From Candidatus Dadabacteria bacterium (GTDB lineage: Bacteria; Desulfobacterota_D; UBA1144; Nemesobacterales; JADFKM01): 33,775 nt of DNA. The notes below the pieces were generated by a model, which had not been told where the DNA came from, did not search any database, and was given only the letters and a program-made list of their open reading frames with translations. The stretch lies in NCBI GenBank assembly GCA_022564935.1, contig JADFKM010000016.1:1-33775 (forward strand), read 5' to 3'. This document shows, piece by piece, positions 17,500 through 29,648 of the stretch. Position 1 is the first letter of the stretch. Each line of letters begins with the position of its first letter. The position numbers and the translations under genes were made by a program.

Positions 17500-18423
17500 T
17501 CATTTCACGGGCCTCGTCTCATGGCTTTTCATAAAAGCGAACACCGCTTCGGGGCTTTCGGGGATCCCGCCCGCGGCTCCGAGGGAGAGCGTGTTCATCG
17601 CCGCGGCCGCCGAGGCGAACGGCAGGCTCTCTTCCACCTCCCATCCCGTGAGCCGCCCGTAGAGGAACGCGCCCCGGAAGACGTCGCCTGCCCCCGTGGT
17701 GTCCACGGCGGACACGTTGTAGGCGGGGGTATCGATGATTTCCCCCCCGCAGCTCGTAATCGAGCCTCTGTCTCCCAGTGTGATTGCGATCACCGCCGCG
17801 CCGAACTCGCTCATCTTCTCAAGGCATTTTCGCGGATCGTCCCCCCCGCTGTAGCTCTTCATAAAATCCACCGACGCTATGAGTATGTCGACGTCTCCCC
17901 GCGCATATTCCACCGCCTCGTTGTACTCACCCGCATCGAAGGAAACTGTTAGCCCTTCTTTTCCCACAGCTTCTATTGCTCTGAGTGCCGCCTCGGCGTA
18001 GAGGTCGTCGAAGTGTACAGCGCGCGTGTTTTGTAGAATGTCGGTAGGGATATCTGCGGCCGTTAGCGGTGTGGTCGTTCCCCGCGACCAGAACACGGTC
18101 CTCTTTCCGCTGTGCTTTTCTATGGGGATCAGCGAGACCTGGGTTTTTTTGCCCGGCTCGACAATCAGGTGGGTCGTATCGATACTCTCCTGCTCAAGCT
18201 CTTGAATGAGGCGTTTTCCTTCAGTGTCGTCGCCTATTTTGGAGACCAGGGCTACTTTCAGCCCGAATCTGGAAAGCACGTTGAGAGCGGTGGCCGTGGG
18301 GCCGCCTCTCAGGGTGGAAAGCTGTGTGATCTCCTGCCGTTCATCTACGGAGGGATGGCGGTTTACAACCCCGAGGTAATCCACACAGACCTGACCTATG
18401 CCCACTACATCGAAGCTGCTCAT
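17500..18423 (-). CDS. PfkB/ribokinase-family carbohydrate kinase
   Basis: 307 residues. The ribokinase fold is shown by the N-terminal VVGIGQVCVDYLG, the GGPTATALNVLSRFGL substrate/dimer region, and the second PfkB signature DTTGAGDVFRGAF with catalytic Asp247 and the anion-hole glycines. It transfers phosphate from ATP to a small hydroxyl compound; the substrate cannot be read from sequence. It starts 9 bp after the MoaD-like gene, so it is the third gene of thrC-moaD-pfkB. Co-transcription with a threonine-synthase-like enzyme and a sulfur carrier is unusual and may indicate a substrate outside sugar catabolism. Confidence 0.88.
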   Translation of the reverse strand: MSSFDVVGIGQVCVDYLGVVNRHPSVDERQEITQLSTLRGGPTATALNVLSRFGLKVALVSKIGDDTEGKRLIQELEQESIDTTHLIVEPGKKTQVSLIPIEKHSGKRTVFWSRGTTTPLTAADIPTDILQNTRAVHFDDLYAEAALRAIEAVGKEGLTVSFDAGEYNEAVEYARGDVDILIASVDFMKSYSGGDDPRKCLEKMSEFGAAVIAITLGDRGSITSCGGEIIDTPAYNVSAVDTTGAGDVFRGAFLYGRLTGWEVEESLPFASAAAAMNTLSLGAAGGIPESPEAVFAFMKSHETRPVK

Positions 18424-18432
18424 CCATGCCGC

Positions 18433-18705
18433 TCAACCGCCGGCAATAGCCGGAATGATGGAAACTATATCGCTTTCATTGAGCTCGGTATCCAGGCCGT
18501 TTATGAAACGGATGTCTTCGTTGTTCACGTACAGGTTGATGAACCTTCGCAGGTTCCCGTTTTCGTCGCAAATCCTCTCTTTGATTCCGGGGAACTGCTT
18601 CTCAAGGCCATCTACAAGCTGCCCGACGTTCGGGGCGTCTATCGTTACTTCGTCCTTATCCCCCGTAAGCCTTCTGAGGGGGGTTGGTATTCTAACCGAT
18701 GGCAT
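18433..18705 (-). CDS. MoaD/ThiS-type ubiquitin-like sulfur carrier protein
   Basis: 90 residues, beta-grasp fold, ending in the exposed Gly89-Gly90 that is adenylated and thiocarboxylated in MoaD, ThiS and CysO. TPLRRLTGDKDEV, FPGIKERICDENGNLRRFINLYVN in outline, and DIVSIIPAIAGG are typical of the CysO/MoaD-related group (FVNVYVNDEDIR-like centre). A strong AAAGGAGG lies inside the end of thrC, and the coding regions overlap by 14 nt. It lacks moaE or thiG neighbours, so molybdopterin or thiazole synthesis is not indicated. The association points to sulfur delivery for amino-acid synthesis, as CysO does for CysM. Confidence 0.88.
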   Translation of the reverse strand: MPSVRIPTPLRRLTGDKDEVTIDAPNVGQLVDGLEKQFPGIKERICDENGNLRRFINLYVNNEDIRFINGLDTELNESDIVSIIPAIAGG

Positions 18706-22321: not shown

Positions 22322-23071
22322 CTACTGATTAAAGAGGGTTTTGTCGATAGGGGAGTTGAGCTCTGTATCGTCTGAGTACTTTACGGAGATCGAAAATTTT
22401 TCCGTACTCAGTTTTATCTTTGAGGGGAAATAGGCGTTGTCTTGACCTACCACCTTCCAGCCTCCGTACTCTATCGTTACCCAAGAGCCGTCATTAAGCA
22501 AAATGTCTGCCCTCTCGACAAGTAGATTCTCCGGGTTTACGTACAGTTTTTGTCTATCCGGCCAAAAGGCGGGTCTCAGCACCAAAAGACCCTGCTCGCT
22601 TTCCAGGAGCAGCTCTTCATCCCCGAGCGATTCCCCGTCGGGGATGCGGCCGAGCAGGAGGTCTACAAGCTCGAATACGTCCATACTGAGGGGGAGGGAA
22701 GGGAAGATGTAGGCGAGGTTGAACTTCTCTCCGTACTCGAAATGGAGCCTGTCCCGTGGGAGCATCAGCACACCTCCGCTCTCGTCGAATATGAGCTTGG
22801 CTACGGTGGTTCCGAAGAGGGTGAGGGCTTCTATGTAGAGCAGGTCTGGGTCTTGCACAATGGTGACCTGCTTGAAGGAGAGCTCTTCGAAGGGGGTTTG
22901 TATTTTAATCTTCGCCATGCCCTTGATGGAGGTGATGCTCCCCTCGCGTGCAGCTATCGCCCTTGCTATTTCGTCAGCGGAGAAATCCGCAAGGTCGATT
23001 TCGGGCCGTGGGGGGATCAAGTAGCATGCGGTTATAAGAAGCAGGACGGCGGATATGATTAGTTTCTTCAA
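22322..23071 (-). CDS. DUF4292/LolB-like outer-membrane lipoprotein
   Basis: 249 residues from a TTG start. A lipoprotein signal peptide ends in LITAC with Cys16 as the lipidated residue. The rest is a beta-rich domain (IKGMAKIKIQTPFEELSFKQ, then repeated strands such as LLYIEALTLFGTTVAKL) resembling LolA/LolB-like lipid-binding half-barrels and the DUF4292 group found in many deltaproteobacteria and Bacteroidetes. A role in lipoprotein or lipid handling in the outer membrane is plausible but not shown. An extended -10 promoter lies 28 bp upstream. Confidence 0.72.
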   Translation of the reverse strand: MKKLIISAVLLLITACYLIPPRPEIDLADFSADEIARAIAAREGSITSIKGMAKIKIQTPFEELSFKQVTIVQDPDLLYIEALTLFGTTVAKLIFDESGGVLMLPRDRLHFEYGEKFNLAYIFPSLPLSMDVFELVDLLLGRIPDGESLGDEELLLESEQGLLVLRPAFWPDRQKLYVNPENLLVERADILLNDGSWVTIEYGGWKVVGQDNAYFPSKIKLSTEKFSISVKYSDDTELNSPIDKTLFNQ

Positions 23072-23342: not shown

Positions 23343-24737
23343 TTACTGCTCTTCCCTCCTTCGCAGCATGGAGCGAAGCCCAATGCCTAGAAGTGGGATC
23401 AATACAACGAGCGCATTAGCCGCCGCTGTGCCTGCGCTTGCCGTAGAGGCTATGGCGCATCCGCCACCGCCGCCCGGGTCGGCTATGCAAATACCCAGAG
23501 CGCATACCTGGCCCTCGGCGCAATCGGTATCAACGGTACACTCGGGCGGCGCCTCAACACAAGCTCCCGCCTCGCATACCTCGCCCTCTGCGCAATCTGT
23601 ATCAACGGCACACTCCGGCGCCGCAACACATTCTCCCGCCTCGCATACCTCGCCCTCGAGGCAATCTGCATCAACGGTACACTCGGGGAGAGGAGCAACC
23701 GGTGTTGCCGCGCCTTCGGCATGCATCCAGAACGCATAACCCTCAAGCGCGAATTCACTCAATGCGACTATTCCCATCTCGTTCTCAAGTCCATCCAGCC
23801 CGCTAACGGCTATCTTTACCCAGCCTACACGTGTAGGACTGTTGGGACAAAGTTCCTGGCTTGAGAGAAGGGTGTCTGACTGGAAAAACTGCTGGTTGAT
23901 CCCGATGTCGAAGAAGCAGTTCTGAACTATAGCTGAGCACGAAACCGGCTCCTCGTTATCATCGAATATGAGCGGCGTCCACACGGCGTCGCCAGGCACC
24001 GCGACGTAGCCGAACGGTCCGGCGTAGTTGTCGCTGAACGCTATGCTGATAAGATCCGCACTATCTTCACCCAAATCATCCTCAAAGTTGAACTTGAGAA
24101 ACTCGGGCTGGATGAGTACGTACCCGTTCGAAGAGCCGTCGAGCGTGGTGCCGTCGGCTTCCACAATGCCGGTCGAAAAACTGACGGCGTCCCTGCCCAT
24201 CGCGTTCAGAGCGAATGTCTCTGTTGCGTCAAAAACATAGGAGTTTCCGAACATGTGCTGGTGGGCTATGGCGTTGCGAGTGCCGGGGCCGTCTATGGGA
24301 GTTATGACCACAAACCCCTTTGTGTTGGTAAAGCTGCCTATAAAGATTGGAGATGCAACGGGATCGTTTGTGGATACACTTCCCATATCATAGATATGCG
24401 TGTCGTTGGGGGTGTAGAAATCGTTGAAGTCCGTCTCTGCGCATATCACAATGGTTGAGGGAATACAAACATCCTGCGCATCTACTGTACAGCTGCTCGC
24501 GAATATCTGGACGTGAACGTTTACGGCTGTGTCCAAGCTCGCGTTTGTCACCTGGATAAAGGAATCTCTGATGTTATTGATTTGGTCTTCATCGTACCAC
24601 AATATAAGCTGGCTTGACTGCATCTCCGTTTTTCCTACAGGCACGACGACCTGCGAGACTGCCGGGGTCGATACAAGTCCCAAAAGGAGAGCAAAAACAA
24701 TAGCTCCCATAATTTTCTCAATAAATCTGGTTTTCAT
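23343..24737 (-). CDS. Secreted Cys-rich protein with C-terminal sorting-like signal (paralogue of the next gene)
   Basis: 464 residues from the ATG at 24737, chosen because GAGGA lies just upstream; upstream in-frame ATGs at 24773 and 24752 lack a site. A signal peptide (to about residue 29, AVSQ) is followed by a ~330-residue domain shared with the adjacent gene (PVGKT...SQLILWYDE, VHVQIFASSC, ICAETDFNDFYTP, AIAHQHMFG, SIAFSDNYAG.FGYVA). Then come three ~23-aa repeats of the form C-x-VDxDC-x-EGxVC-x(3)-G-x-C and a tail made of GGGGGCAIAS, a hydrophobic stretch (LVVLIPLLGIGL) and RRR. This tripartite tail resembles MYXO-CTERM/myxosortase-type signals for surface anchoring. Function of the large domain is unknown. 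Confidence 0.78.
   Translation of the reverse strand: MKTRFIEKIMGAIVFALLLGLVSTPAVSQVVVPVGKTEMQSSQLILWYDEDQINNIRDSFIQVTNASLDTAVNVHVQIFASSCTVDAQDVCIPSTIVICAETDFNDFYTPNDTHIYDMGSVSTNDPVASPIFIGSFTNTKGFVVITPIDGPGTRNAIAHQHMFGNSYVFDATETFALNAMGRDAVSFSTGIVEADGTTLDGSSNGYVLIQPEFLKFNFEDDLGEDSADLISIAFSDNYAGPFGYVAVPGDAVWTPLIFDDNEEPVSCSAIVQNCFFDIGINQQFFQSDTLLSSQELCPNSPTRVGWVKIAVSGLDGLENEMGIVALSEFALEGYAFWMHAEGAATPVAPLPECTVDADCLEGEVCEAGECVAAPECAVDTDCAEGEVCEAGACVEAPPECTVDTDCAEGQVCALGICIADPGGGGGCAIASTASAGTAAANALVVLIPLLGIGLRSMLRRREEQ
23485..23691 (-). repeat. Three tandem 69-72 bp repeats encoding Cys-rich modules
   Basis: A GCAATCxGxATCAACGGxAC word recurs at 23520, 23592 and 23661 (spacing 72 and 69 bp), giving 24- and 23-residue units with four Cys each within the preceding secreted protein. 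Such CxxDxDCxxGxxC modules are frequent just before MYXO-CTERM tails in myxobacteria. Confidence 0.8.
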
Positions 24738-24777
24738 AAATCCCGTCCTCATTGCTTTTTTTTGTCTAAACATTCTA

Positions 24778-26184
24778 TTACTCGCCGATCATCCAGGTCG
24801 CCCCGGAGAAATTATCGACTTCATCACAAGTCAGAGTGGTCGTACAATCGCCGTCATTAGCGCACGCGAGCCCATCAAGAGTGCAATTGCCTGGTAGACA
24901 GATGAAGCCGCCGACAGAACCGCAATCTTCATTACTCGTACACGGAGAGATAGAACCTAGCAAACATCTACGGCCATCGCATGTCTGGGCACAGCCGGAG
25001 TCTCCAATGCAGAGCGCCCCACCGATAGTGCAATTGCCAACACAGCCCTGTACAATAGGACAGTCAAAAAGGTCAACGCATGAGGCGCCGGATTCACTGC
25101 ATACACGATTTGCGCATGTCAGGGCGCAGTCGGTGCCATCAACGCATGATGGAAGATCGGTATTACCATCACAGAACGATACACCGGTGTCGGTAAACCC
25201 TATCAATCCAAGCTCGTTCTCGAGCCCTTCCACTCCGCTCACGGCTACCTTCACAAAGCCGTCAATCGTAGGATTGTTGGGACAAAGATCCCGGATTCCA
25301 AGAAGCTCATTGGACTGGGGTAATTGGGGATTCAACCCTATATTAAAGAAGCAGTCCTGTACTACGGGGTTGCACGAAATCGGGGTCTCGAACTCATTGA
25401 ATACGAGCGGCGTCCACACTGCGCCGGCAGGCGTGGCGACGTAGCCGAAAGCGCCCGCGTAGTTGTCGCTGAACGCTATGCTGATTATGTCAATTTCGTC
25501 GTACAGGGAGGCGGCAAAGTTAAACTTGAGTTTGTCCGGCTGGAGAAGCACATAGCCATTGTCAACTCCGTCAAGAAGGGTGCCGTCGGCTACGACGTTT
25601 CCCGTGCTGAAGCTCACTGCGTCCCTGCCCGTAGCGCTTACCCCGAACCCCGACCCCACAATAGAATCTTCAACGAAGGAGTGTCCGAACATGTGCTGGT
25701 GGGCAATGGCGGCTCGCGTGCCCGGGGCGTCAATGGGAGTTACGACCACGAAACCCTTGGTGCCGTCAAAGTCGCCTACTAAAAATGTGGGTTGAGTCGG
25801 GTCGTTTGTTAATACCTCATCCATCCAATAGGTATGTGTATCCCGGGGTGTGTAGAAGTCGTTGAAATCGGTCTCGGCGCATATCACAAGGGTTGAGGGA
25901 ATACAAACATCCAACGCATCTAGTGTACAGCTGCTCGCAAAAATCTGGACGTGTACGTTCACGGGCGTGTCTATGCTGGCGTTGGTCACCATTATATGCG
26001 TGTGCCTGTCAGTAGAGGAATTGGCCTCGTCGTACCAGAATACAAGCTGGCTAGCCTGCTGAGTGGTCTTTCCCACAGGCCGGATGTGCTGCGCGGCAAG
26101 GGAGATTGCGGGAGCTAAGAGCATCCCAAAGAAAAAGGCCGTCACCATTACGGCTAAAGCCCTGGAAAGTAACTTATTCTTCAT
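24778..26184 (-). CDS. Secreted Cys-rich protein, paralogue without sorting signal
   Basis: 468 residues from the ATG at 26184, which follows AAAGGAGGA and a strong promoter; the in-frame ATG at 26211 lies in the -10 box and cannot be the start. A signal peptide runs to about ISLAA. Its N-terminal ~330 residues are clearly homologous to the neighbouring protein: RPVGKTTQQASQLVFWYDE, VNVHVQIFASSC, FNDFYTPRDTH, AIAHQHMFGHSF, ISIAFSDNYAGAFGYVATP. The C-terminal ~130 residues are a different Cys-rich array (CVDGTDCALTC, CIGDSGCAQTCDGRRC, CTSNEDCG, CANDGDC) ending in TWMIGE with no hydrophobic anchor. Probably released or bound to the partner. The two genes are 40 bp apart and likely co-transcribed. 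Confidence 0.78.
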   Translation of the reverse strand: MKNKLLSRALAVMVTAFFFGMLLAPAISLAAQHIRPVGKTTQQASQLVFWYDEANSSTDRHTHIMVTNASIDTPVNVHVQIFASSCTLDALDVCIPSTLVICAETDFNDFYTPRDTHTYWMDEVLTNDPTQPTFLVGDFDGTKGFVVVTPIDAPGTRAAIAHQHMFGHSFVEDSIVGSGFGVSATGRDAVSFSTGNVVADGTLLDGVDNGYVLLQPDKLKFNFAASLYDEIDIISIAFSDNYAGAFGYVATPAGAVWTPLVFNEFETPISCNPVVQDCFFNIGLNPQLPQSNELLGIRDLCPNNPTIDGFVKVAVSGVEGLENELGLIGFTDTGVSFCDGNTDLPSCVDGTDCALTCANRVCSESGASCVDLFDCPIVQGCVGNCTIGGALCIGDSGCAQTCDGRRCLLGSISPCTSNEDCGSVGGFICLPGNCTLDGLACANDGDCTTTLTCDEVDNFSGATWMIGE

Positions 26185-26209
26185 TTTCCGTCCTCCTTTG
26201 TATAATTCC

Positions 26210-26238
26210 ATTAAAACATAATTGAAAATTTATGTCAA
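26210..26238 (-). promoter_or_regulatory. Strong sigma70-type promoter for the secreted-paralogue operon
   Basis: Minus-strand TTGACA (26233-26238), exactly 17 bp, TTTAAT (26210-26215). The predicted start near 26203 gives a short leader containing the AAAGGAGGA ribosome site (26191-26199) and fixes the start codon at 26184. Confidence 0.75.
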
Positions 26239-26429: not shown

Positions 26430-28196
26430 TCAGTTCACGGAGGTATCTGCGCTTAGCATCTCTTTGATGCGGTTTACCTTTTCGTGAAGTCTGTTGCGAA
26501 GCTCTTTGTCCTCTATTGGCTTAAGGCTCAGTCCCAGCTCGTAGTACTCAAGGGCCTTTATGGAGTCGCCCATATCTGAGTACACGTCCCCGATGTGCTC
26601 CATGATCACGGGGTCTTCGGGAGAGAGGCGAGCGGCTTTTGTCAGCAGCTCAAGCGCTTTATCGAGGATCCCCTTCTTGTAGTACACCCATCCCAGGCTG
26701 TCGATGATGTATCCCTTGCTCGGGGACAGCTCAAGCGCCCTCTGCACGAGCCTTAGCGCCTCGTCAAGTTTTTCTCCCCTTTCTGCGTAGGTGTAGCCCA
26801 GGAAGTTCATCGCATCGGCGTGGTCGGGGTTCATCTTGAGCAGCTTTTTCATGGTGGAAATTGCCTTGTCTTCTTTCTTCAAGAAGTAGTATGTCGCCCC
26901 GATGGAGTAGTAAATCAGCTCGCTTTTGGGGTTTTTCTTCACGAACTTCCGGTAGAGCCGCATGGCATCGTCGTATCTCTCCATTTTCCTGTAAATGCTG
27001 CCGAGGTTGTTCAGGAGCCGCTCGTCGTCTGGAAATGAGCTGTGTGCCGCTTCCGCTATGTGCAGGGATCGCTTGCGGTCGCCCATTTTTTCGTACAGGT
27101 AGGATTTCTGCACAAGGACGTCGGTGTAGAACTCCGAATCGTTGGTAAAGCCCTCCAGTATCTTTTTCGATTTCTCGTATCTGCCGGTTTCGATATAGCA
27201 TAGGGAAATGTAGTACCTGGCCTGCTCATTGGTTCTGTCTACATTGAGCATCGCCTCGAACCGCTCAACGGCCTTGCTCCAGTTCCGCTGCTCTACGTAG
27301 AGCAGTCCGAGCCTGAGGGTAAGCTCCGGGTTAAAGGAGCTTACTTGGGTGGCCTTCTCGAACTGTTTCGTGGCATCGTCCAGCCGGTGGACTCTGAACA
27401 GAAAGTTCCCGTACCTCATACGGGCCTCTTGGCTCAGAGGGAAAAGAGTGACCAGCGTCTTGTATATGTCCTCTGACTCTTTCGTCCTGCCCCGCTTCTC
27501 AAGTAGAATCGCAAGGTCGATGAGCGCCGTGGGGTACTGGCCGTTGATCTCCAGGGCACGCTTGTAGTACTGCTCGGATTTTTCATAGTCTTCCATTTCA
27601 TAGTAAAGCCTTCCCAGAAAGTAGTAGCCGTTTTCGTCATAGGGCAGAAGCTCAATCACCCTCTCGAAGTTCTTCATCGCATTTTTATAGTCCTTTCTTT
27701 CTGTGCGCATGATTCCCAGAAACAGGTGGGCTTCGGGGTCCTCAGGGTTTAACTCCACGGCTTTTTTCAATTCATCTTCGGCCATCCCGACCATGTTCTG
27801 CTCAGGAGACGTAGCGTATATCTTGCCCAGAAGGGTGTGTGCCGGGGCGTATTCGGGGTTGACCGAGACGGCTTCTTTTAGCTTTGCTACCGCTCTAGAG
27901 TACTGGTTGAAGCTCATGTACATGACGGACAGGCTGTATTTCAAGAATGCGGAGGTGGGGTCCAGTTTTTCGGCTTCCTCTAAAGATTTCAGGGAGGCGG
28001 TAAAGTTCCGTCTCTGATACTGGAGCCGGGAGACGGCAAAGTGGTAATATGCCTCAGACCTGCTCTTCGGCGGAGCGGAAGCCGCAGTAGGACCCTCTTG
28101 GGTGCCGGCTGCCATTTTTCCCGTGGCTTTTGGTGCGCAGGAGCAGATCAGAAAAAGCAAACATAGAAGTAGAGCGGTTTTGCAGCCTGTTTTCAT
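26430..28196 (-). CDS. TPR-repeat outer-membrane/periplasmic lipoprotein
   Basis: 588 residues from the ATG at 28196, chosen over 28208 because GAGG sits 6 nt before it. The signal peptide ends in LICSC with Cys20 as the lipid attachment site. The rest is a long chain of tetratricopeptide repeats (at least a dozen, e.g. AHTLLGKIYA, AHLFLGIMRTERKDYKNAM, YYFLGRLYYEMEDYEKSEQYY, YYSIGATYYFLKKEDKAI, IDSLGWVYYKKGILDKALELL), forming a superhelical protein-binding scaffold. Such lipoproteins assist envelope assembly, secretion or polymer export. Upstream and 15 bp away is a transglutaminase-like gene in the same operon. The partner is unknown. Confidence 0.88.
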   Translation of the reverse strand: MKTGCKTALLLCLLFLICSCAPKATGKMAAGTQEGPTAASAPPKSRSEAYYHFAVSRLQYQRRNFTASLKSLEEAEKLDPTSAFLKYSLSVMYMSFNQYSRAVAKLKEAVSVNPEYAPAHTLLGKIYATSPEQNMVGMAEDELKKAVELNPEDPEAHLFLGIMRTERKDYKNAMKNFERVIELLPYDENGYYFLGRLYYEMEDYEKSEQYYKRALEINGQYPTALIDLAILLEKRGRTKESEDIYKTLVTLFPLSQEARMRYGNFLFRVHRLDDATKQFEKATQVSSFNPELTLRLGLLYVEQRNWSKAVERFEAMLNVDRTNEQARYYISLCYIETGRYEKSKKILEGFTNDSEFYTDVLVQKSYLYEKMGDRKRSLHIAEAAHSSFPDDERLLNNLGSIYRKMERYDDAMRLYRKFVKKNPKSELIYYSIGATYYFLKKEDKAISTMKKLLKMNPDHADAMNFLGYTYAERGEKLDEALRLVQRALELSPSKGYIIDSLGWVYYKKGILDKALELLTKAARLSPEDPVIMEHIGDVYSDMGDSIKALEYYELGLSLKPIEDKELRNRLHEKVNRIKEMLSADTSVN

Positions 28197-28211
28197 AATT
28201 AACCTCATATA

Positions 28212-29648
28212 CTATGACGCATCCAGTATTTCCAGTTTCAGCTTTCCCAAAAATCTCATTATTTCCGAGCTCCTGCTGAGGCCTCCTTCGAGCAGTTTTA
28301 TATGCGAAGCGTCGGCGGGCACCTGACCCAGCGTGGAGTCCACCGTTATCCATCCCCCTACGAACATCTCGTTCCAGGCGTGGTAGTAGAACTTGCCGTT
28401 TATATACATCAATCCTAGAACTATCCTTGTCGGTATTCCCGCTGAGCGTGAAAGGGCCGCGAGCAGCGTTGCGTGCTCGTTGCAGTCCCCCTTCTTTGTC
28501 TTGAGCACGTCAAGTGCGTTCGGGATGCTTATGACGGGGACTTTTTCGAGATTATTGTACACCCAGTCGACAAGCTTCCGGCCTGCGAGCAGCGAATCGG
28601 TCTCGCCGTTCAAGATGCTTTGTGTGACGGCGGCGATTTCAGGATGGGCGCTTTGAATCAAGTGGGTCGGTTTTGTGAGTTCTGATTTGTCGCCTCCTGC
28701 ATAGGGGATTGAGTATGGGGTCAGTGACTCAAGCGCCTCGCTGTTGACCTCTACTATCCCGCTCTCGAAGCTCTGTCTTCTGCCGTCGCTAAGCTGAAGG
28801 TCTTCGGTGGAGTCCAGACCCCCGATTTTAACCCTGAGGAGCTTAAGCTCCCTGGCGTCCTTAAGTGACACATTGGAGGAAACGGCCGTTTTCGATACGA
28901 TGTCCAGATTCGCCAGGGGCTCTCTCGTGGCCTTGGCCCTTCCCTCCAGCTTGGAAATGAATCCCGGCTCGGTGAACTCTTTTACCAAAATTCCCCGGTC
29001 GTTAATCCACACTGTGGAAGTGGTCCCGATGAACCGGATCCTGACCCTCAGGGTATCGTAGTACGTGGAGGGGGTTTTAACGGTTTCTTTACCCTCTATG
29101 TCTATATATGCCACCATTTTTTCCGGCGGCACACCGGTTATTATCAGGCTCGGGTCAAAGATACTCATCTGGAGCTTTTCTCCGGCAGGGGGCCCAAGCT
29201 CGGCAAGCCGTTTGTAAAGGAGCGGGAAGACAAGCGCTTTTTCGTCTACGGGATAGGAGAGAGACGAAATTCCAGACACCGTATGCATTTCGATATCGAA
29301 CGCCCCCGCGTTCCTAGTACCCCGGGCGTTTATGGCTGCGGAGCCGGCCTTCATCTCGAACTCGAACGATGTGAGTGAATTAGCCTTCAGGGTGTAGGTG
29401 GCGAGTGTCTCGATGTTCTGAGTGACTCCGAAAGTGGTCATCTGGAATTTTACGTACTCCTTAATTTCAAGACTGTCTCCTGTGTCGACCGAGATTGTTT
29501 GCGAATACCCTATCTTATCCCCCTTAAAATATAGGCCCCACCAGTGCTCCTCTGTCCCGGGTTTGTCGGCCGGGCTTGAGGGGAGTTTTGAAGGGAAGAG
29601 GAAAAAGACAACAAGGGGAATGGAGAGCAGTAAAAAACGCCATTTCAT
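28212..29648 (-). CDS. Exported protein with transglutaminase-like cysteine protease fold domain
   Basis: 478 residues. An N-terminal hydrophobic segment (residues 6-20) targets it to the envelope. Residues ~25-330 form a beta-rich region of repeated strands without a named family (WGLYFKGDKIGYSQTI opening, common in this class). The C-terminal domain carries a complete transglutaminase triad: Cys389 in KKGDCNEHATL, His423 in YYHAWNEMF and Asp437 in WITVDSTLGQ. Bacterial members act as periplasmic peptidases or cross-linking enzymes. It is the first gene before the TPR lipoprotein. Confidence 0.87.
   Translation of the reverse strand: MKWRFLLLSIPLVVFFLFPSKLPSSPADKPGTEEHWWGLYFKGDKIGYSQTISVDTGDSLEIKEYVKFQMTTFGVTQNIETLATYTLKANSLTSFEFEMKAGSAAINARGTRNAGAFDIEMHTVSGISSLSYPVDEKALVFPLLYKRLAELGPPAGEKLQMSIFDPSLIITGVPPEKMVAYIDIEGKETVKTPSTYYDTLRVRIRFIGTTSTVWINDRGILVKEFTEPGFISKLEGRAKATREPLANLDIVSKTAVSSNVSLKDARELKLLRVKIGGLDSTEDLQLSDGRRQSFESGIVEVNSEALESLTPYSIPYAGGDKSELTKPTHLIQSAHPEIAAVTQSILNGETDSLLAGRKLVDWVYNNLEKVPVISIPNALDVLKTKKGDCNEHATLLAALSRSAGIPTRIVLGLMYINGKFYYHAWNEMFVGGWITVDSTLGQVPADASHIKLLEGGLSRSSEIMRFLGKLKLEILDAS

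Follow-up and report, generated by a model that had tools for sequence, protein, structure and literature searches.

The locus raises the question whether two adjacent genes for secreted proteins, which share a domain and differ in their Cys-rich regions, result from a duplication with subsequent tail replacement, as an earlier note on this DNA had proposed, or belong to a more general arrangement. The window, i.e., the whole stretch of 33,775 nucleotides that was analysed, is contig 95 of a Dadabacteria genome of 1.99 Mb in 104 contigs (the own genome in the following). Both genes lie on the minus strand and are separated by 4 bp (26211..24778, then 24773..23343). Their proteins are identical in 226/428 residues (53%, E=2e-144), such that the two are indeed adjacent paralogues with a shared domain. 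Over the alignable codons the genes show 61% nucleotide identity, which rules out that the pair was duplicated by assembly.

The first gene (24778..26211, minus strand; ORF of 477 aa) is a copy of the own genome's domain family with neither tag nor lipobox, i.e., of the released type. Its likely start is the ATG at 26184, with the protein beginning MKNKLLSRALAV; the signal peptide MKNKLLSRALAVMVTAFFFGMLLAPAISLAA (26092..26184, minus strand), as read from the sequence, is probably cut near AxA. The main part of the shared domain follows at 25174..26091 (minus strand), as placed by the alignment with ten paralogues (alignment A1). Next comes a Cys-rich region of 121 residues with 20 Cys (24811..25173, minus strand; from A1 and a count of Cys spacings). 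All 20 Cys of this array lie within residues 347-467, after which the domain resumes with its final conserved segment FSGATWMIGE (24781..24810, minus strand). This segment aligns with GGASWMIGK, GVASWMYGD etc. in the paralogues, its W and M are invariant in 11/11 copies, and it corresponds to the predicted last strand in the model of the second protein (residues 291-299, of low confidence there). Thus, of the irregular array without anchor that had been described for the first protein, the missing anchor stands, but the array is not the protein's end, since it is inserted before the last conserved segment.

The second gene (23343..24773, minus strand; ORF of 476 aa) is of the anchored type. 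Its shared domain spans 23712..24653 (minus strand) and is followed by three Cys-rich modules of the ECTVDADCLEGEVCEAGEC type (23478..23681, minus strand) and a C-terminal sorting-type tag, GGGGGCAIASTASAGTAAANALVVLIPLLGIGLRSMLRRREEQ (23346..23474, minus strand), with a Gly-run, a Cys, a transmembrane stretch and an RRRE end. The modules match NCBIfam TIGR04201 (Myxo_Cys_RPT) in three stretches with 47.7 bits (cut-off 25) and Pfam PF23416 (DUF7107) with 37.5 bits (cut-off 24.6), i.e., both cut-offs are exceeded, which bears out the reading of three regular modules plus an anchor. The paralogue C73b_long differs in that it carries three DNDGDGLTDC-type modules in the same place.

We also compared the Cys-rich regions of both proteins with each other. 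A profile of the second gene's regular modules does not detect the insert of the first gene, and the first protein's array has no match in Pfam or NCBIfam, TIGR04201 included. The two regions are not wholly unlike, though: four units of the insert fit C-x5-C-x(3-7)-C-x(3,4)-C, close in Cys spacing to the C-x5-C-x5-C-x4-C of the regular modules. Shuffled sequences contain 0.07 such units on average and 0/20,000 shuffles reach four, for a pattern that was picked after viewing the sequence.

With regard to further copies, which had been proposed as a check, the domain is present about 14 times in the own genome, as copies or fragments (15 matched places, of which 11 are complete genes and the rest fragments at contig ends). 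The 11 own-genome copies in A1 share 68 invariant columns. Genes of the first type encode a signal peptide and the domain, stopping at its conserved WMxx end; those of the second type run, in the own genome, from the domain through a tail into the tag. In total, 17 pairs were read, i.e., six own-genome pairs plus eleven from relatives, and the unanchored gene lies upstream in 17/17. Neither tag nor lipobox is seen in the first genes of these pairs, two of which are cut N-terminally by contig ends. Among the 15 readable second genes, 14 carry an anchor, i.e., the tag in 11 and an N-terminal lipobox in three; for the remaining one, in the relative G024 (contig C159), no anchor was found. The second genes of two further pairs are cut and hence left out of the 15, and a lipobox-like pattern in the second gene of G025, which follows its signal peptide, was not counted as a lipobox. 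The 17 pairs are not independent events, since they share descent.

The split into an anchored and a released protein therefore recurs across 17 pairs and persists while the type of anchor changes, such that the earlier idea of one surface-bound and one released version appears, as judged from sequence, correct and far more general than the window pair. The tails of the second genes vary as well. They include Myxo_Cys_RPT modules, DNDGDGLTDC-type modules (C73b_long) and, outside this family, Pro/Thr stalks; RTX repeats (PF00353) are found in the lipobox-type second genes and in G017. All own-genome second genes have three modules. Because the same ordered pair recurs many times in the own genome and in relatives, it seems to be an established, as yet uncharacterised surface system of two proteins and not the outcome of a single duplication.

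The phylum is represented by 57 genomes in the set that was searched, 43 of them in the window's order. A first profile scan of genome contigs with the own-genome alignment as query gave no matches. A second one, with the relatives' long genes as query, gave nine loci, which belong to Dadabacteria by named phylum or genome match wherever a phylum is named. Relatives with matching loci include Candidatus Dadabacteria UBA2774, RBC041 and RIFCSPHIGHO2_12_FULL_53_21 as well as Bacterium HR37. A plasmid search for the domain found no match.

Given these pairs, how did the window genes come about? First genes without a tail are the rule of the family, and the most simple reading of the sequences is thus that the window's first gene gained an internal insertion and not a tail. 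The 121-residue insertion is absent from the other first genes, which have a loop of variable length at this site, e.g., TNQIIISPTPTPFDF in C73a_short. Duplication with subsequent tail replacement, as first proposed, fits neither this rule nor the internal position of the array. A narrower form of the idea, namely that one local duplication took place recently and the window genes then exchanged their C-terminal tails, could draw on their tandem position, on a highly alike tract and on the sister grouping of the two genes, which an AU test does not reject (p 0.27). We nevertheless consider it very improbable. The own genome has the same two-type pair at five other places and further families of the phylum have it too, the Cys array sits inside the domain and not at its end, the second gene is nearer to C57_long across most of its length, and the best tree groups the first gene with C73a_short (86/87).

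The trees further show that partners do not share one simple history. The AU test rejects a domain tree in which short and long genes form two clean clades (p 5e-5). The partners of pair C73b have sister domains (100/100), one with a tail and the other without, whereas those of pair C73a are not sisters (AU p 0.012). In the window, a sliding comparison reveals a tract of unusual likeness (24384..24548, minus strand; residues 76-130 of the second protein), in which both genes show 84-86% nucleotide identity to each other, against no more than 72% to the remaining paralogues, possibly due to gene conversion. Also, the tags are closer to each other (nucleotide identity 0.77-0.95) than the domains are (0.53-0.71), and likewise at the synonymous level. 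Taken together, the alike tract, the higher likeness of tags compared to domains and the tree pattern suggest that an old pairing was overlaid by conversion or recombination among the copies.

We then asked what the shared domain is. Single and profile searches against Pfam, NCBIfam, PHROGs and PDB sequences gave no match; that is, as far as sequence searches go, the domain is assignable to no family, as had been noted, and no known family with a trivial role accounts for it. We disregarded low-scoring candidates, among them thiamin pyrophosphokinase (E 0.026) and designed Ig proteins (E 0.12), as too weak. An AlphaFold2 model of the second protein's domain, built on a 15-row alignment without the own-genome paralogues, reached a pTM of 0.73, with pLDDT mostly 75-93 in the first 160 residues and lower values in the remainder. 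In this model, the N-terminal half (residues 11-156) is a predicted beta-sandwich that matches TM1070 (1nc7) best in VIA-align (Z 12.0, 2.8 A, 106/116 residues), followed by the Anabaena sensory rhodopsin transducer (ASRT; 2ii8) with Z 8.3, and the next unrelated rows score 5.7. The C-terminal half modelled alone gave no confident model (pLDDT 37.6). Foldseek alone found nothing below E 1e-3 in PDB and viral structures; its rows with viral capsids were put down to common beta-sandwiches.

The ASRAH superfamily, whose members are proposed to bind sugars, was founded on the structures of TM1070 and ASRT with their eight-stranded beta-sandwich (De Souza, Iyer and Aravind 2009, PMC2739507). TM1070 and ASRT are tetramers in which the dimer interface partly builds the cleft, a near-invariant Asn ends strand 2, secreted branches exist, and other secreted ASRAH families form dyads or tetrads (PMC2739507). 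The domain studied here resembles this superfamily, which has both secreted and surface-attached branches, in more than the predicted sandwich. The Asn that ends strand 2 is N77 in the second protein and is invariant in 11/11 copies of A1 and in 15/15 distant members (alignment A3), and the domain-wide register of hhalign sets this Asn on that of ASRT. In ASRAH proteins, strand 1 begins with a conserved Trp; here, strand 1 (LILWYD) has a W in 8/11 own copies or else another aromatic residue, which is neither invariant nor clearly at the strand's start.

At the sequence level, hhalign against six ASRT proteins was not significant (E 0.038, 0.5 and 0.8, from thin alignments of 6 to 12 rows). A search of the 57 genomes with PF07100, the Pfam family of the ASRT-like branch of the ASRAH superfamily, matched no domain copy at the gathering score. 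Where ASRT has its ligand signature SHExxCxxN, the stretch here reads RD[ST]F[IV]Q[VI]TN, i.e., H and C are absent. For these three reasons we do not file the domain as an ASRAH member and call it ASRAH-like by predicted fold, which is a resemblance rather than a membership. The earlier view of an unassignable domain is qualified to this extent for the N-terminal half. Further differences are the additional C-terminal half and the paired genes, Cys-rich modules and C-terminal tag, which are not described for ASRAH proteins.

The anchor of the second protein was followed up via its tag, GGGGxC[AS]IA..GTAxANxLxxLIPL..RRR, which occurs at 14 places of the own genome and, at E 1e-3, in 30/57 genomes of the phylum. 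Its Cys is invariant in 12/12 tags. Since two proteins of 959 aa and 923 aa that lack the shared domain end in the same tag (L081:4759-7638; G000:C94:7325-7447), it appears to serve as a general surface signal of the own genome. Curated models do not recognise the 12 tags; the best are JDVT-CTERM (E 0.019, 4/12 tags) and MYXO-CTERM (E 0.073, 1/12). The MYXO-CTERM tag is cleaved by the CPBP protease MrtX (PMC11980579). The tag studied here resembles both in its three parts, i.e., invariant Cys, transmembrane stretch and Arg-rich end, as well as in the predicted presence of a CPBP protease of the Mrt_core type. It differs in its signature (GGGGxC[AS]IA...GTAxANxL) and in its phylum, Dadabacteria.

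The CPBP proteases of the order carry the Mrt_core signature with E 3e-15 to 7e-21 and the own-genome one with E 2.8e-15, in either case under NCBI's curated cut-off. In several relatives, the gene of a putative CPBP protease and the pair are about 17 kb apart. A CPBP protease is encoded in each of the 19 genomes with a strong tag (E 1e-6 or better), and the tag is found at E 1e-3 in 0/18 genomes without such a protease. This co-occurrence is not independent evidence, since it follows phylogeny.

Our preferred reading, which we hold with about even confidence, is that the window genes form one copy of a cassette conserved in Candidatus Dadabacteria, which encodes a released and an anchored protein, both with an ASRAH-like N-terminal half and both binding a glycan or a small molecule. 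The architecture of the pair is well supported, since domain family, pairing, gene order, the split into anchored and released proteins, the conserved tag and the insertion can be seen in the sequences. The fold of the N-terminal half and the Mrt-like protease are predicted; ligand, tag processing and partnership we infer. Both proteins would be exported via their signal peptides and adopt a common beta-rich domain structure of two parts. The first one ends with this domain and would be released to the periplasm or the outside. The second one would be kept at the envelope, where its three modules, as disulfide-rich spacers, lead into the Cys-transmembrane-Arg tag. The tag would most likely be processed by the myxosortase-like CPBP protease, such that the protein stays attached through its Cys. 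The most likely ligand of the domain is a glycan or another small molecule, and repeated duplication together with variable loops would diversify the binding surface; the window's Cys-rich insertion would then be an extreme loop. The first protein may even remain with the second as a complex, since ASRAH domains assemble into dimers and tetramers whose interface holds the cleft.

Taken further, the last step gives an explanation of its own: the partners would be subunits of one complex, a surface-tethered hetero-oligomer in which the released partner would bind to its anchored counterpart through the ASRAH dimer face, with the binding cleft between them. This would account for the strict pairing and the fixed gene order of the 17 pairs. 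The sister domains of C73b and the converted-looking tract in the window are as expected if partner faces must match, and the dyad/tetrad rule published for secreted ASRAH families (PMC2739507) points the same way. On the other hand, long and short genes interleave in the tree, i.e., most partners show no plain co-evolution, and the copies read in the genome with 35 domain matches (G006, see below) are untagged. On balance, we regard such a complex as conceivable but somewhat doubtful.

Alternatively, the domain could be part of a structural coat or stalk protein that expanded in copy number and has no particular ligand, with the Cys-rich and RTX parts providing only mechanical length and stability. 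Many copies, a beta-rich fold, disulfide-rich or RTX spacers and a tag common to unrelated surface proteins would all suit such a role. A coat has no need of a conserved unanchored partner, however, and the polar residues N77, H87, D118, D124, H126 and the GRDAV block, which are highly conserved across copies down to 40% identity, suggest a function beyond scaffolding. We therefore think a mere coat or stalk unlikely.

With regard to novelty, the cassette is an undescribed variant assembled from known kinds of parts. The stronger statement, i.e., a new, repeatedly duplicated recognition pair of a soluble and a tag-fixed protein, with an Mrt-like protease, a secreted ASRAH branch of its own through which the two join, and variety in loops and spacers, is at present tentative and rather improbable. 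To our knowledge, Dadabacteria are represented by assembled genomes only, and their surfaces have hardly been described. Since the domain family reaches about 14 copies in one genome of 2 Mb and 35 matches in a second one, and its pairs combine a released with an anchored protein, it is likely central to the contact of these cells with their surroundings. In addition, the new sorting tag with its candidate protease is open to testing, and the fold possibly marks a new secreted branch of ASRAH, whose natural ligand has been a question since 2009.

Some observations concern the surroundings and variants of the pair. In the window, the flanking genes at 22322-23071, 26430-28208 and 28212-29648 (all minus strand) are outer-membrane lipoprotein-like, TPR lipoprotein-like and transglutaminase-like, respectively, and this neighbourhood differs from that beside the relatives' pairs. 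Small lipoproteins that contain the SurA-like stretch ARVNGxPIYxxDL (L081:10297-11133 and 17649-18473; L046:10988-11881; L048:10882-11688) adjoin pairs both at C73 of the own genome and in another family's relatives, and may help the pair's export or folding. The genome G006 (OFTM105, L054, L088; family f7) contains 35 domain matches within 2.1 Mb, arranged in tandem runs; several of its copies have lipoboxes and those read lack the C-terminal tag, which we interpret as a probable lineage-specific expansion with another anchoring mode. Second genes of relatives (L046:6967-8997, L048:6972-8936, L087:651-2678) show an insertion of roughly 230 residues between the domain halves, which has no Pfam match and whose start resembles a carbohydrate-binding module (xNGSFxxGxxxxW). 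Finally, G017 (L017; L089:5941-7428) has a single unpaired copy that ends in RTX repeats and adjoins a secreted protein, possibly a glycoside hydrolase.
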